From a bacterium (GTDB lineage Bacteria > ARS69), in contig JALGZO010000654.1 in assembly GCA_025774865.1 (NCBI GenBank), forward strand, positions 1 to 5,952: a stretch of 5,952 nucleotides of DNA, written 5' to 3'. Made by a program: the position numbers and the translations under genes. The notes below the pieces were generated by a model. It was not told where the DNA came from. It searched no databases and saw only the letters and a list, made by a program, of their open reading frames with translations. Positions 357-5,817 of this stretch are shown piece after piece. Numbering within the stretch: the first letter of the stretch is position 1; every line of letters starts with the position of its first letter.

Positions 357-956
357 GTGATGCGTTTCGCGGCAGTCCCGTCCGCACTCTCGGTCGTGCT
401 GTTGCTGGCACCGATCGCCAGCGCGGAGATAGGTTTCCACTACGGCTGGACGATCAGTAGCAGCGATTCCGATCCGTTCTCGAACATCGGTGCCCCGGCC
501 GGTGGAATGGCCACTCTCTACCTGTGGCTTCAGTGCGTCACGAAGGACGGCATGGCGTCCGCCGAGCTCGATCTTGCCGTCGTTGGGGATGGAAGCCGGA
601 TCGTATCCTTCGGTCCCGCTCCCGGATTTCTGAATGCGGGGGGACCTACGAACCTCCTCCTCGCTGCGACTGGATGCCCGGGTGACGGAGATCCGGCAAT
701 CCCGATTGTCGTCGGCGCGATCTTGGTGATCGATTTCGGAGCCGAGTACTGCATCGTGCCATCGGCGGTCAACCGCCGAAACGGGACAGTCAACTGCGAC
801 GTGGCCAGTCCACAGGCTCATCCGAACAGCACCATCGGATACTCGTCCGCCGGTGGTCCGCCATCGTGCGACGACTCGCAGGACGGCATGCTCTGCGCTC
901 CCCCACGTTCGGGAGATGCGACGAACTGGGGCAGAATCAGGAGCACGTATCACTAG
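357..956 (+). CDS. Secreted Cys-containing protein of unknown function with WGRIR-x-x-Y C-terminus
   Basis: 199 residues, and I do not recognise the family. The N-terminus is a clear Sec signal peptide: a short basic start, a hydrophobic core at about residues 9-20, and a probable cleavage after A-S-A at 21-23. The mature part has six cysteines (60, 107, 132, 147, 171, 180), enough for three disulfides, so it probably folds outside the cytoplasm. The middle alternates hydrophobic residues (LYLWLQC at 54-60, IVVGAILVIDFG at 117-128), suggesting a beta-rich domain. The tail from about 150 is rich in Ser, Pro and Gly and ends in NWGRIRSTYH, closely matching the end of the protein at 5191-5817. 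The start is GTG 357 or the adjacent ATG 360; both follow a purine-rich, G-run ribosome site at 342-351 and differ by one residue. The DUF1579-like gene follows after 39 bp, probably cotranscribed. A lipoprotein is excluded because no Cys follows the signal peptide. Confidence 0.8.
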   Translation: MMRFAAVPSALSVVLLLAPIASAEIGFHYGWTISSSDSDPFSNIGAPAGGMATLYLWLQCVTKDGMASAELDLAVVGDGSRIVSFGPAPGFLNAGGPTNLLLAATGCPGDGDPAIPIVVGAILVIDFGAEYCIVPSAVNRRNGTVNCDVASPQAHPNSTIGYSSAGGPPSCDDSQDGMLCAPPRSGDATNWGRIRSTYH

Positions 957-975: not shown

Positions 976-999
976 GAGGAGCCGAGAATGGGCTCATGA
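976..999 (+). promoter_or_regulatory. Ribosome site with four-codon mini-ORF overlapping the next start codon
   Basis: GAGGAG at 976-981 lies 6 nt before an out-of-frame ATG at 988 that reads Met-Gly-Ser-stop (988-999). Its TGA overlaps the ATG at 996 in an ATGA junction. The same site is 14 nt from ATG 996, which is long for direct initiation. No other in-frame start lies between the upstream TAG (954-956) and 996. Translation of the downstream gene may therefore depend on termination and restart at ATGA, or on a weaker direct start. Confidence 0.4.
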
Positions 1000-1511
1000 T
1001 CGAGAAGCCGAGTCTCGCCGGAGGTCTTTGTGCGGTCGCCTTGTTCGCCTTCATCGTCAACGGTGTCGACGCTCAGACCGAGAGTCCGTGCTCGCACGAG
1101 AAGTCACGCGAGTTCAACTTCTGGATCGGCGAGTGGGACGTCTATTCGAATGGGGATCTCGCCGGCACCAACAGCATCCGGCCGATTCTCGACGGCTGTG
1201 TGCTGCTGGAGAGCTGGAGCGGCGCCCGGGGCAGCGCGGGATCGAGCTTCAACTTCTACAATCCGCAGAGCGGCAAGTGGCAGCAGTTCTGGGTGTGGAG
1301 AAACGGCACAACGCTGGAGCTGGAGGGAGAGTACGGCGACGGCAAGATGATCCTGGAAGGCGTGTCCGTCGGCCGCGAGGGCAACGAGGTACACAACCGC
1401 ATCACCTGGTACGACAACGAAGACGGCACCGTGCGCCAGCACTGGGAGACCCGGAACCGCGGCGAGACCTGGGAAACGGCCTTTGACGGCCTTTACCGCA
1501 AGCACCAGTGA
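996..1511 (+). CDS. Secreted DUF1579-like protein
   Basis: 171 residues with an N-terminal signal peptide (basic K4, hydrophobic core about 9-21, likely cleavage after V-D-A near 26). The mature part fits the small DUF1579-like group in pattern: FNFWIGEWDV at 40-49, a conserved Cys-containing strand (DGCVLLESW at 66-74), SFNFYNPQSGKWQQFWV at 84-100, a LELEG strand at 107-111, and a terminal TWETAFDGLYRK at 158-169. Alternating aromatic and acidic strands suggest an up-and-down beta-barrel of lipocalin type that could bind a small hydrophobic ligand. No function has been established that I can name. Cysteines 12 (in the signal peptide), 32 and 68 are present; 32 and 68 could pair. The gene follows the 357-956 gene by 39 bp on the same strand and ends in TGA, facing the propeller gene across 108 bp. 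Family assignment is by pattern recognition; the substrate is unknown. Confidence 0.8.
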   Translation: MIEKPSLAGGLCAVALFAFIVNGVDAQTESPCSHEKSREFNFWIGEWDVYSNGDLAGTNSIRPILDGCVLLESWSGARGSAGSSFNFYNPQSGKWQQFWVWRNGTTLELEGEYGDGKMILEGVSVGREGNEVHNRITWYDNEDGTVRQHWETRNRGETWETAFDGLYRKHQ

Positions 1512-1619: not shown

Positions 1620-3881
1620 TCATCGCGCGAGAATCACCTTCCGGGACGTCCAGTCGTCGCCGATCCGGAGTCGGGCGAAGTAGACACCAGATGGGTTCGC
1701 GCCCCCCCAGGACACCTGGTGGCTTCCCGCGTCGAGGCGGCGATCGAGGAGAACCGTCACGAGTCGCCCGCGCACATCGAAGACGGAAAGGGAGACCCCG
1801 GCGCCGGGCGCCGGGACCCGAAACCGGAACGTGACGCCGGAGCTCGTGGGGACCGGCGTCGCAGTGAAGTCCGGCACGCTCACCGGTCCCCCCGATTCGC
1901 TGTCGATGCCCACGGCCGCACCCGCAACCTGGTGGAAAAGCCCCGCGGCGCTCGTACCCACGAGGAGAACGTCCTGGAGCGACGAGCAGTGCACAGAGAC
2001 CGCGCGTCCCGGAAGGCCGCCGGCCGCGTAGTCGGGGTGAGAAGTCACCAGCTGCCCGTCGAATCGTACGAGGAACACGTCTCGCGTGGAGAAATCCCAG
2101 GATACGTCCACGATTGACGATCCCTCGAGGTCGAGCGATTCCTGCAAAGTCCAGCTCAACGCGGCGTCCACGGTCTCGTAGACCCGACCATCGGAATACA
2201 CCGTCACCAGCAGGTTCGGGCTGACGGGTGAGATGAAGAGCTCTTCGATCGAAAGATCGCCTCCCACCGGCGGCAGACCGCTGTTTCTCGGCACGGAGGA
2301 GGCTCCCGCGTCGACGCTTCGCTCCACCGTGTGAGGCCCGTTCGCGATGAAGATCTCGAGACTGTTCGCAGGATGGAGCGCGAGCCGCACATCCGTGAAG
2401 CTCGGGTTCGTGAGGGCATAGGGAAGCTCGCCCGTAGCGACGAAGAGACCCGAGTTCGTCGCCATGTAATCGACTCCCATCCAGTCGGTTGCTGCGTCGT
2501 ACACCCTTGCCCACTCGGGGAGACCTTCCGGATCCACCCCTCCGGACCAGCTCGTCCCCCCGTCGGAGCTCTCGAGAGCGAATGACGCCTGCACGTCGCC
2601 GTCGACCGCATCCCCGGCGAGAAACACCCGATTCGCGTTCGAGAAAGGAACCTCGAGCGCGGTTCGCTGGAGGAAGAAGATCACGTCGAAGACTTCCCCT
2701 CGATCGGTCCAGGTCCCCACGGATCCGCTCGAACGAAGGATCCGTCGAGTCAAGCGGACGTAGTTCGTGGAGAGATGATCGCCACCGATCTGGTGGACCC
2801 AGTGATTGCGGATTCCGTCGACTCGAACCGACCACGTCGCCCCGCCGTCGCTCGAGTGACGGAAGCCGGTTCCTCCGTAAGAGGACTCCGCGAGGTAGAC
2901 GTGGGTCGGATCTCCCGCATCGTACGCGAGCGTCCGGATGTCCCCCTCGTCGCACTCCGTGGCCAAGACGTCTGACCAGCTCGCACCGCCGTCCGTGGTC
3001 CTCCACGCTTGACCCCGCCCCGGGCCGAAACCGCAGAAATCACCTTCGCCGCCGGCCAGCGCGCCGTCGGGGTCGGTCGGGTGGGTCACTGCGTGCAGGG
3101 CGAGGGGAAAGTCGCCCGGGAGGTCGCCGACCGGCGTGAACGTCGCCCCCCCGTCCGAGCTTCGCTGGGGTTGAATGCCAAACCAACCGCCCTCCCCGAG
3201 GAACGCGTAGACACGGTTCGGATCGGGTTCGCTAAACGCGAATCCGTGGTAGTTGTCGGCGAGGGATGTCCAGGTGAATCCCCCGTCGGTCGAACGGAAG
3301 CTGCCGCTCTCGAACGGACCGCGCGCGACGAGCATGATGTTCGGGCTCGCCGGGTGGATCGCCAGGTAGTTCATCCCGGAGCCGTCCGGTGAGCCGAGAA
3401 ACGACCACGTGTCTCCAGCGTCCGTCGTGCGGTGAAGCCCGGTCTCGGCCCCGGGCGGCGAGGTCCCGGCGAAAGCGACAGCGGAACTGCTCGGATGAAA
3501 CGCGAGAACCTCGATCGATCCGTGGGGCAGGATGTCGAGCACCGCGACTTGCTCCCATCCGGCTCCGCCGTTCGTCGTTCGATAGAGGCTGGCGCCGCTG
3601 GCGCCCAGCATGAGGTTCGCGTCGTGCGGCGACGCTTCGAGAACGTCCAGGGTCGGACTGTCCACGATCAAGGCCCAGGTGAGTCCGGCATCCACGGTTC
3701 TGTACACGCCGCCCGTGGTCGCGAGAAACACCCGGCCGGACTCCGTTGGGGACACGGCGAGATCACGGGCGTTCGCGTTGAAGAAAGGAAGCTCGGTCTG
3801 GTTCCAGAGCGTGCCGGGCGCCTCGGTCGCCGGGACCACGACCAGAGAAAGGGAGAGAACGGCAAATCGGAAGGAGCGCAT
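1620..3881 (-). CDS. Secreted Asp-box (BNR/sortilin-like) beta-propeller protein with FlgD-like/T9SS-type C-terminal domain
   Basis: 753 residues from ATG 3881. A signal peptide (MRSFRFAVLSLSLVVVPATEA) precedes a long run of Asp-box motifs, S/T-x-D-x-G-x-T-W. Clear copies are at about residues 62-69, 102-109 (Asn in place of Asp), 152-159, 197-204, 241-248, 295-302, 343-350 and 438-445, with weak copies near 522 and 570-577. Repeats of this spacing build one or two beta-propellers, as in sortilin/Vps10-type and photosystem-assembly-like proteins; catalysis is not implied, since I see no sialidase Arg triad arrangement. The last ~80 residues (VPDFTATPVPTS through VFDVRGRLV, NPSGVYFARL and the final RKVILAR) match the FlgD Ig-like/type A C-terminal sorting domain of FCB-group secreted proteins. 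It is probably exported and held at or released from the cell surface. Ligand unknown. A GTG start at 3887 would add two residues but sits inside the ribosome site. Confidence 0.88.
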   Translation of the reverse strand: MRSFRFAVLSLSLVVVPATEAPGTLWNQTELPFFNANARDLAVSPTESGRVFLATTGGVYRTVDAGLTWALIVDSPTLDVLEASPHDANLMLGASGASLYRTTNGGAGWEQVAVLDILPHGSIEVLAFHPSSSAVAFAGTSPPGAETGLHRTTDAGDTWSFLGSPDGSGMNYLAIHPASPNIMLVARGPFESGSFRSTDGGFTWTSLADNYHGFAFSEPDPNRVYAFLGEGGWFGIQPQRSSDGGATFTPVGDLPGDFPLALHAVTHPTDPDGALAGGEGDFCGFGPGRGQAWRTTDGGASWSDVLATECDEGDIRTLAYDAGDPTHVYLAESSYGGTGFRHSSDGGATWSVRVDGIRNHWVHQIGGDHLSTNYVRLTRRILRSSGSVGTWTDRGEVFDVIFFLQRTALEVPFSNANRVFLAGDAVDGDVQASFALESSDGGTSWSGGVDPEGLPEWARVYDAATDWMGVDYMATNSGLFVATGELPYALTNPSFTDVRLALHPANSLEIFIANGPHTVERSVDAGASSVPRNSGLPPVGGDLSIEELFISPVSPNLLVTVYSDGRVYETVDAALSWTLQESLDLEGSSIVDVSWDFSTRDVFLVRFDGQLVTSHPDYAAGGLPGRAVSVHCSSLQDVLLVGTSAAGLFHQVAGAAVGIDSESGGPVSVPDFTATPVPTSSGVTFRFRVPAPGAGVSLSVFDVRGRLVTVLLDRRLDAGSHQVSWGGANPSGVYFARLRIGDDWTSRKVILAR

Positions 3882-3883
3882 CT

Positions 3884-3891
3884 TCACCTCC
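3884..3891 (-). promoter_or_regulatory. Strong Shine-Dalgarno deciding the start of the Asp-box gene
   Basis: Read on the minus strand, GGAGGTGA is fully complementary to the 16S rRNA 3' end. The GGAGG core is 5 nt before ATG 3881. The alternative in-frame GTG at 3887-3885 lies within the site itself and cannot use it, so ATG 3881 is the likely start. Confidence 0.75.
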
Positions 3892-4099: not shown

Positions 4100-4861
4100 T
4101 TACAGCTTTCTCTCCGACTTGATCCTGGCGTAGGCGTCATTGGCCGCCTGCATCTTCTCGGTGGCGAATCTCGTGAAATCCTCGGGCAACCCCTTCGACT
4201 GGATCGTGTCGGGGTGATAGTCGCGGGCGATCTGACGGTACGCCTGCTTGACCTCGTCATCGGTCGCCTCTGATGTCAGACCCAGGACCTCGTAAGCCGA
4301 GGAATTCGCCAGACCGGTGGCCGCTCCAAACAGCGCCTTGCAGGATGCGTAGTCTTGGGACGACAGCCCCATCTCCAGTGCGAGACCCTGGATCAACGTC
4401 TCCTCGGCCGGGTGCAGCTGCCCATCGGCGTGTGCGATCTCGAGTAGCAACGTCACGATGTCCCGGATTCGGTCTGGCTGGTTGGCCATGATCTGCCGGA
4501 CCTGATGGGCGAACTCGGCGGCAGGAATCGCACTTTCGCGTGCCCGGTTGAAGATACGCCCCGCCATGCGCCGATCGTCGACGCCCATGCCCAGGCGCTG
4601 GAGGAAGGCATCGAAGGTCCGCACCTCCTCGGCGGTCACCCTGCCGTCCGCCTTGGCGGTCTTGGCGGCCAGACTGATTACCGCGATCAGGAACGTCGAT
4701 TGAAGTTCCTGGGCGGAATAGCCGCCGGCGCGCGACCGATACGCCGTAGCACGGTCTGCGAGGCCAACCTGCGCACCGACACTGCCGCCGATCATCGCAC
4801 CAAGTGGACCGCCCAGCATGAAACCAACTGTGCCGCCCAACAGGGCGCCGAGAAGACCCAT
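4100..4861 (-). CDS. djlA: DjlA-type membrane-anchored J-domain co-chaperone (TerB-like domain plus J domain)
   Basis: 253 residues, close to the ~270 of E. coli DjlA, with the same order of parts. Residues 1-34 are a glycine-rich hydrophobic segment with repeated G-G and G-x-x-x-G spacing, serving as membrane anchor and probable dimer interface. Residues ~48-178 form a TerB-like helical domain with two acidic motifs, KADGRVTAEE (70-79) and HADGQLHPAEE (144-154). Residues ~188-250 are the J domain: AYEVLGL, then the diagnostic HPD at 216-218 within ARDYHPDTIQSKG, then an alanine-rich last helix. The family stimulates the ATPase of DnaK at the inner membrane through HPD, which is intact here. 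A GGAG ribosome site at 4870-4873 is 8 nt before ATG 4861. No dnaK or grpE lies in the window, so it appears to be a lone gene. It is 218 bp from the Asp-box gene and probably transcribed separately. The symbol rests on architecture; a related TerB/J-domain protein is possible. Confidence 0.88.
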   Translation of the reverse strand: MGLLGALLGGTVGFMLGGPLGAMIGGSVGAQVGLADRATAYRSRAGGYSAQELQSTFLIAVISLAAKTAKADGRVTAEEVRTFDAFLQRLGMGVDDRRMAGRIFNRARESAIPAAEFAHQVRQIMANQPDRIRDIVTLLLEIAHADGQLHPAEETLIQGLALEMGLSSQDYASCKALFGAATGLANSSAYEVLGLTSEATDDEVKQAYRQIARDYHPDTIQSKGLPEDFTRFATEKMQAANDAYARIKSERKL

Positions 4862-5190: not shown

Positions 5191-5817
5191 CTAGCGATAG
5201 ACTGCCTTGATTCGGCCCCAAGTTGTGGGCGGTACGGCCGTGCTCATGGTGCGGATCCTCATCCTGGTTCTGGACTCGTCACCCGGCTGGTAGTTGCAGT
5301 CGAAGCAATCGATGCGAAACTCGACATACGGGTACGCCATGTCTTCACAGTCGTAGTCCACGCCAATCCGAGAAAACTCCTGGGTCCCGAACGGATGGTA
5401 TCCAAGTTGGAGAGGCGAGGAGACGGCGGCTGTGTACCAACGGCCAGCTTCACACTGGCATATGAACATCAAGCACGTATGCTCCTCGATATTCGAGAAG
5501 GGGCCGCTGCTCGGCGGCAGCTGCCAATCGTCAAGGATGCTCCCGTGCGGCGTCGTGTACTTGCAGCCGTCTTCTTCGCAGTCCCATTCGAGCGTGAACA
5601 GAATCGTTGAGATCCCTGCATCAAGAGAATCGAACTCAACGACAAAAGTGATAGGGGCTGAAAGGGGCCCTACGACCTCGTTGGTGAACGTCGTCAAATC
5701 GTTGTCCGTATCATGATCGAGGAACACACGATATGCGGTAGCCGGCGTGGCCAGGAAAGCAGCGGCGGGAACTGCGGTGAGCATGACAACGAAGAGTCTC
5801 CCAAGCAATGGAATCAT
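5191..5817 (-). CDS. Secreted Cys-rich protein of unknown function with WGRIK-x-x-Y C-terminus
   Basis: 208 residues, and I do not recognise the family. There is a Sec signal peptide with Arg at 7, a hydrophobic core at ~8-22 and probable cleavage after A-T-A at 26-28. The mature protein has eight cysteines (80, 85, 115, 120, 122, 157, 171, 174) in close pairs: C-x4-C, C-x-C and C-x2-C. This suggests several disulfides or a bound metal. The first half contains a strand pattern (APITFVVEFDSLDAGISTIL, 54-73) of a secreted beta-sandwich, and acidic DHDTDND at 34-40 could bind calcium; both are inferences. The end, PPTTWGRIKAVYR, matches the end of the 357-956 protein, although I can find no convincing similarity elsewhere between them. 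AGGAG at 5826-5830 lies 8 nt before ATG 5817, supporting this start. Base composition looks somewhat richer in A/T by eye than the Asp-box gene. No neighbour within the window appears to share its transcript. Confidence 0.8.
   Translation of the reverse strand: MIPLLGRLFVVMLTAVPAAAFLATPATAYRVFLDHDTDNDLTTFTNEVVGPLSAPITFVVEFDSLDAGISTILFTLEWDCEEDGCKYTTPHGSILDDWQLPPSSGPFSNIEEHTCLMFICQCEAGRWYTAAVSSPLQLGYHPFGTQEFSRIGVDYDCEDMAYPYVEFRIDCFDCNYQPGDESRTRMRIRTMSTAVPPTTWGRIKAVYR

Follow-up and report, generated by a model that had tools for sequence, protein, structure and literature searches.

A short C-terminal tag on many unrelated secreted proteins of uncultured bacteria, a candidate alternative type IX sorting signal

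Introduction

C-terminal sorting tags are well known as a kind, and those of type IX secretion (T9SS) are among the closest to the one described here. The type A signal (TIGR04183/PF18962) is an Ig-like domain of about 75 residues found at the C terminus of Sec-exported, otherwise unrelated proteins. Its last 13 residues, lysines included, are needed for function, and for the export of GFP the 22 C-terminal residues of the HBP35 signal are enough (PMC10202324); in Porphyromonas, it is important that the signal has its folded, Ig-like architecture (PMC11285876). The type B (TIGR04131/PF13585) and type C signals are alternative classes, regions of about 100 residues. PorP/SprF proteins, which are specialised shuttle barrels, read type B, and this is a precedent for an additional signal class (PMC10202324, PMC12618676), and distinct T9SS signals are served by distinct shuttle barrels (PMC12618676). 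A different group, comprising LPXTG, PEP-CTERM, GlyGly-CTERM and MYXO-CTERM, consists of short C-terminal signals that are carried many-to-one by unrelated surface proteins, in each of which a motif is combined with a transmembrane helix and a basic cluster.

Here we describe a tag of about 15 residues that ends two proteins encoded in a 5,952-nucleotide stretch of bacterial DNA (the window). The tag, a candidate signal, sits like type A at the C terminus of Sec-exported proteins that are otherwise unrelated; the two coexist in the genomes and occur on homologous domains. Their basic-hydrophobic ends, with a conserved lysine and a terminal arginine, are similar in chemistry but not in spacing, and the T-x-V lead-in may be similar too. 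The tag differs from type A in forming no domain, in its invariant W-G and in its lysine, which stands at −5 rather than −6, and it matches no T9SS signal model in Pfam or NCBIfam profile searches. Its proposed role likens it to types B and C, although it is far shorter, and the type B models found no match among the tagged proteins. It was discovered in the same way as the LPXTG-like tags and, like them, is short and carried many-to-one by unrelated proteins, but it lacks the transmembrane helix. No Pfam or NCBIfam model covers it; in the openly accessible literature, we found neither its sequences in print nor a link between Eisenbacteria or Krumholzibacteria and type IX secretion. This short variant, with neither membrane helix nor folded domain, appears to be new.

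Results

The two tails of the window end proteins that have no other convincing sequence similarity. Nucleotides 918–953 (+) translate to ATNWGRIRSTYH and are followed by a TAG stop (tag with stop, 918–956), and minus-strand positions 5229–5194 translate to PTTWGRIKAVYR, also followed by TAG (tag with stop, 5191–5229). The core codons, TGGGGCAGAATCAGG and TGGGGCCGAATCAAG, are identical at 13 of 15 bases. The copy in the first protein, WGRIRSTYH, is a degenerate one, the usual residues being K at −5 and R at −1. The proteins themselves, at 357–956 (+) and 5191–5817 (−), have 199 and 208 residues and 6 and 8 cysteines, respectively, and both start with a Sec-type signal peptide, as read from the sequence. 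In BLASTP of the pair, the best alignment is the tail, with 6 of 11 residues identical, and no convincing similarity appears outside it; in the clustering of tagged proteins described below, the two fall into separate clusters. The preliminary description had reported the shared tails, their positions and the codon match, all of which were exact on retranslation, and its picture of two exported, Cys-rich proteins of about 200 residues that resemble one another only at the tail was borne out as well. The 5191–5817 protein is an orphan by similarity and profile searches, with no other protein-level match in the source genome and no match in Pfam or NCBIfam; AlphaFold on this protein alone reached a pLDDT of 40 and gave no usable model.

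The 357–956 protein, in contrast to the orphan, could be modelled, and its cluster holds 24 tagged members. A signal peptide, MRFAAVPSALSVVLLLAPIASA (357–428; cleavage site inferred by eye), precedes a predicted cohesin-like β-sandwich that occupies mature residues 1–143 (429–857; pLDDT mostly 55–87). The AlphaFold2 model, built on six sequences, has a whole-chain mean pLDDT of 69 and a pTM of 0.75. In it, the sandwich runs from residue 1 to about 143–149, disorder sets in at about residue 150, and the tag forms a separate, detached helix of low confidence (residues 164–174) beyond a disordered linker (876–917; pLDDT < 50). The sandwich resembles cohesins with Z of about 10 (up to 10.3), in alignments that reach residue 142–143, and it is complete at mature residue 143, which leaves the tag outside the predicted fold.

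The order of modules in this family points the same way. A Cys-containing module of about 35 residues, CIVPSxxNNxxVTVDCDPxNPQxHxN..GYS, follows the sandwich in the window protein and precedes it in the relatives L045 (832–2696) and L205 (1320–2177), a circular permutation with respect to the cohesin-like domain, and in both orders the tag remains C-terminal. Because the module is permuted while the tag stays last, the tag can hardly be part of the fold; it is modular and hard to reconcile with membership in the sandwich. The preliminary description had allowed that the two proteins are distant members of one family whose tail is the last strand of a common fold. As the sandwich closes before the tag, the module order is permuted and the clusters are separate, we reject that idea.

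Three further genes of the window deserve mention. The secreted BNR/Vps10-like protein at 1620–3887 (−) serves as a comparator, as it has a classical T9SS type A signal and no tag; the TIGR04183 match, above cut-off, covers residues 678–752 (about window 1632–1856). Directly 3′ of the first tagged gene, 996–1511 (+) encodes an exported, untagged protein of 171 residues with no significant family match. The product of 4100–4861 (−), a TerB plus DnaJ protein, has at its N terminus a segment resembling a glycine zipper; the protein is close to the co-chaperone DjlA (NF006948, 161 bits against a cut-off of 162).

The tail recurs throughout the lineage. The source assembly (4.7 Mb in 785 contigs) and four others represent five genera of one family in the window's phylum. 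In the source assembly, a degenerate DNA pattern for the tail plus stop finds 25 sites, all at the ends of open frames, versus 1 for the reversed pattern. The tail-plus-stop pattern is present in all five genomes, at 17–33 sites each with none for the control. The other proteins with the same end that the preliminary description had proposed to look for number about 29 in the source genome and 17–37 in each relative. When no stop was required, a stricter and slightly different pattern, W-G-x-[IV]-K-x-x-Y-R, gave 136 matches in the five genomes and none for its reversed control. Directly at a stop stand 106 of the 136 (two match lists compared by eye). Of the other 30, 28 lie 1–10 codons before a stop, one runs off a contig end and only one, G000:C31:5140, is non-terminal, so that 134 of 136 matches lie at a stop or within 10 codons of one. 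Against an expected 3/64, the 106 matches at a stop correspond to a binomial log10 P of about −111, a figure to be read as overwhelming rather than exact because the matches are partly related. A motif search blind to the tag covered 500 ORFs of a 779-kb portion of the relative G001; at the head of its ranked list stood W(−9) G(−8) K(−5) Y(−2), and the list also held type A T9SS tails and a tail with the motif LGY. The W-G-x-[IV]-K-x-x-Y-R tail is a lineage-wide C-terminal tag.

Beyond the family, the tag apparently is restricted to one group of uncultured lineages, as far as sequence patterns tell. A stricter DNA pattern was scanned over 84,980 genomes, and the matches listed all bear the names Candidatus Eisenbacteria, Krumholzibacteriia/Krumholzibacteriota, Gemmatimonadetes/Gemmatimonadota (HKST-UBA01, DHS20C21) or only "bacterium"; this pattern is GC-biased, and absence outside the listed groups is not proven by it. 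Of the 47 genomes in the phylum to which one Eisenbacteria genome belongs, 43 are tagged, and control matches number 0.

The sequence of the tag is conserved beyond what the searches imposed. The consensus of 198 tails is [VTS]-[PAS]-V-[ED]-x-x-[ST]-W-G-x-[IV]-K-[ASG]-[LMI]-Y-R, then stop, in which W, G, I/V, K, Y and R are partly imposed by the search patterns and L/M/I at −3 partly so, by the genome-collection pattern only. The patterns left free the lead-in (−16 to −13), position −10 (S/T) and position −4 (a small residue), and conservation extends to such free positions, V(−14) and E(−13) among them. Between clusters, the tails are 67% identical, a value inflated by the selection pattern, versus 7% for the 26 residues upstream of the lead-in. 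Synonymous codons vary freely among copies (TAC/TAT; CGN and AGG; ATC/ATA/ATT and GTN; all three stops), which argues that selection acts on the peptide. We do not favour a β-strand signal for outer-membrane insertion, since the positions of the hydrophobic residues (−9, −6, −3 and −2) would suit a helix, but hydrophobic-moment values for helix and strand (0.52 versus 0.58; shuffled, 0.40) do not separate the two. Close relatives of tagged proteins carry degenerate tags, including TWSAIKGLYGSR, SWGEVKALFGRED and NWGRLKRLYDY, that indicate tolerated changes (L109:1057–1740, L111:3008–3676, L064:6765–7565 and L106:267–1289).

The carriers are diverse and mostly exported. Single linkage at E < 1e-4 sorted 233 tagged proteins into 73 sequence clusters, some singletons of which may be fragments or undetected relatives. 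Pfam matches of the 73 representatives include lamin-tail, PD40, X25, CHRD, FG-GAP, PKD, β-helix, CBM20, cohesin and CBM96 domains, as well as caspase, cleaved adhesin and pectate lyase. NCBIfam adds the choice-of-anchor J and W domains; choice-of-anchor-type domains pair with whichever anchoring signal their lineage uses. The enrichment of signal peptides suggested in the preliminary description is strong: by a simple home-made rule, 139 of 157 tagged proteins (∼89%) have a signal-peptide-like start, compared with 195 of 639 neighbouring ORFs (31%; P about 1e-41), and the same rule in the tag-blind sample was positive for 5 of 7 tagged and 93 of 493 other ORFs (P = 0.004). A membrane-spanning stretch, sought as 18 hydrophobic residues within the last 50, was found in 0 of 73 representatives. 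In each genome, dozens of secreted proteins that are unrelated to one another bear the tag.

T9SS machinery, as represented by SprA_N, the PorV family and Peptidase_C25, is present in all five genomes. PorV-family matches number 9–11 per genome, many above the curated cut-off, and these multiple proteins are possible specialised shuttles. In each genome, the best C25 match and a strong PorV-family match share a contig and are at most about 2 kb apart, a porU–porV arrangement, and the C25 protein of the pair ends in a type A-like domain. Classical type A signals (TIGR04183) number at least about 95–150 per genome. We had considered SprA co-occurrence as proof of a link between tag and T9SS but dropped it; nearly all of these bacteria have SprA, and its co-occurrence with the tag therefore says little. 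It is found in two of four tag-less genomes and was not found in the tagged MAGs G011, G026, G040 and G055, perhaps owing to incompleteness.

A closer connection comes from interchange of the two signals on homologous domains. L115 and L093, 43% identical over 171 residues, end one in the tag and the other in a type A-like domain, as do the adjoining cohesin genes L133:4478–5413 and L133:3387–4445 and the further pairs L105/L145 and L100/L080; weaker cases involve PKD and NHL-like domains, which are mobile. Among other candidates, L160 and L106 proved to have degenerate tags, and L144–L259 and L144–L238 failed pairwise BLAST. The two signals were never found together on one protein, whether by motif among 233 proteins or by Pfam among 73, and a TIGR04183/PF18962 domain was found on none of the 73 representatives. 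A V-E lead-in common to the tag and type A linkers did not hold up (27/38 linkers versus 104/149). T-G-[VI], a variant chosen after looking, occurs in type A linkers at 36% versus 7% (92 linkers), which is only suggestive of a similar lead-in.

Discussion

The tag is fixed at the C terminus, is carried by many unrelated secreted proteins, is conserved against a diverged remainder and is modular. The preliminary description had proposed a sorting, anchoring or processing signal, and the many unrelated exported carriers support a signal of this sort; which of the three it is, and that export of tagged proteins depends on T9SS, we infer. Homologous domains end in either signal and never in both, and this, together with the published data on short signals and shuttles, favors a short T9SS signal. 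Counting against it are the role of the folded architecture in Porphyromonas, the lack of a match between the tag and any T9SS signal model, the lysine at −5 rather than −6, the low diagnostic value of SprA and the mobile domains in several of the interchange cases. We thus consider it probable, at roughly 0.6, that the tag is a C-terminal sorting signal that acts as a short alternative to the known T9SS classes.

A tag of this kind could also operate without T9SS, in sorting, processing or anchoring by a dedicated protease, transpeptidase or outer-membrane receptor of the lineage, in the manner of exosortase or rhombosortase. The many-to-one distribution on unrelated secreted proteins and the apparent restriction to one lineage would fit such a system, the sequence is unlike the T9SS models, and SprA co-occurrence is not diagnostic. 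However, substrates of exosortase, rhombosortase and myxosortase have a C-terminal membrane span, which none of the 73 representatives shows, and on this ground we reject a transmembrane sortase-type tag; that type A signals take the place of the tag on homologous domains also speaks for T9SS. We regard action outside T9SS as rather unlikely, if worth keeping in mind. The tail might instead be a docking peptide that binds a surface receptor or a neighbour's cohesin-like domain and so helps to build a complex on the surface, apart from the main route of secretion, as in dockerin–cohesin pairs or pilin strand exchange. One large tagged family is cohesin-like, cohesin domains occur on other tagged proteins, and the model shows the tail as a helix on its own, all of which would suit docking. 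Yet the tail occurs on 73 clusters, most of which are not cohesins, the Pfam matches of the representatives include no dockerin family, and dockerins, at about 60–70 residues, are far from the size of the tag. Docking is, in our judgment, improbable.

Two alternatives remain. That the two window proteins are distant full-length homologues, with the tail as the last strand of a common fold, draws on their similar length, cysteine content and export and on the poor model of the 5191–5817 protein. It is countered by similarity confined to the tail, by a sandwich that closes at residue 143 without the tag, by the permutation that leaves the tag in place and by the presence of the same tail on β-helices, propellers and caspase-like domains. 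We consider homology of this pair very improbable, and as an explanation of the tag as a whole it is refuted. A DNA-level repeat inserted at gene ends, encoding the tail by chance, would account for the 13 of 15 matching core-codon bases in the two window genes, but synonymous and x positions vary freely among copies and the matches are in phase with the open frames whose ends they occupy. On the codon variation we reject this explanation, to which we give almost no credence.

If the tag is indeed a short T9SS signal, tagged proteins would cross the inner membrane by Sec, after which the tag peptide, with its hydrophobic W, I, L and Y, would be recognised by a reader protein, for which a PorV-family barrel, of the roughly ten in each genome, is the probable candidate. 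The tag would thereby replace the Ig-like type A domain, and its mostly small carriers would reach the outer surface or the medium. More speculatively, a PorU-type peptidase (C25) may cut off or exchange the tail at a site marked by the V-[ED] lead-in. The full version of this proposal, an unfolded signal class of about 15 residues with a dedicated PorV-family barrel, used beside type A in uncultured lineages on the Eisenbacteria/Krumholzibacteriota side, seems to us an even bet.

Should this be true, about 15 residues suffice for what takes a folded domain of about 75 in type A cargo, which would make a minimal export signal directly testable, and T9SS-type sorting extends beyond Bacteroidota, where a 2023 review places it. 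The tag would also allow the surface and secreted proteome to be listed for bacteria that have no cultured model, and it can be converted at once into an annotation model.

The LGY tail in the ranked list of the tag-blind search represents a second C-terminal motif, (E)xLRxLGY[VIL]x-stop. It is found on several G001 proteins of 450–800 residues (e.g. L238:9923–11395 and L258:13327–15636), which are possibly of sulfatase type.
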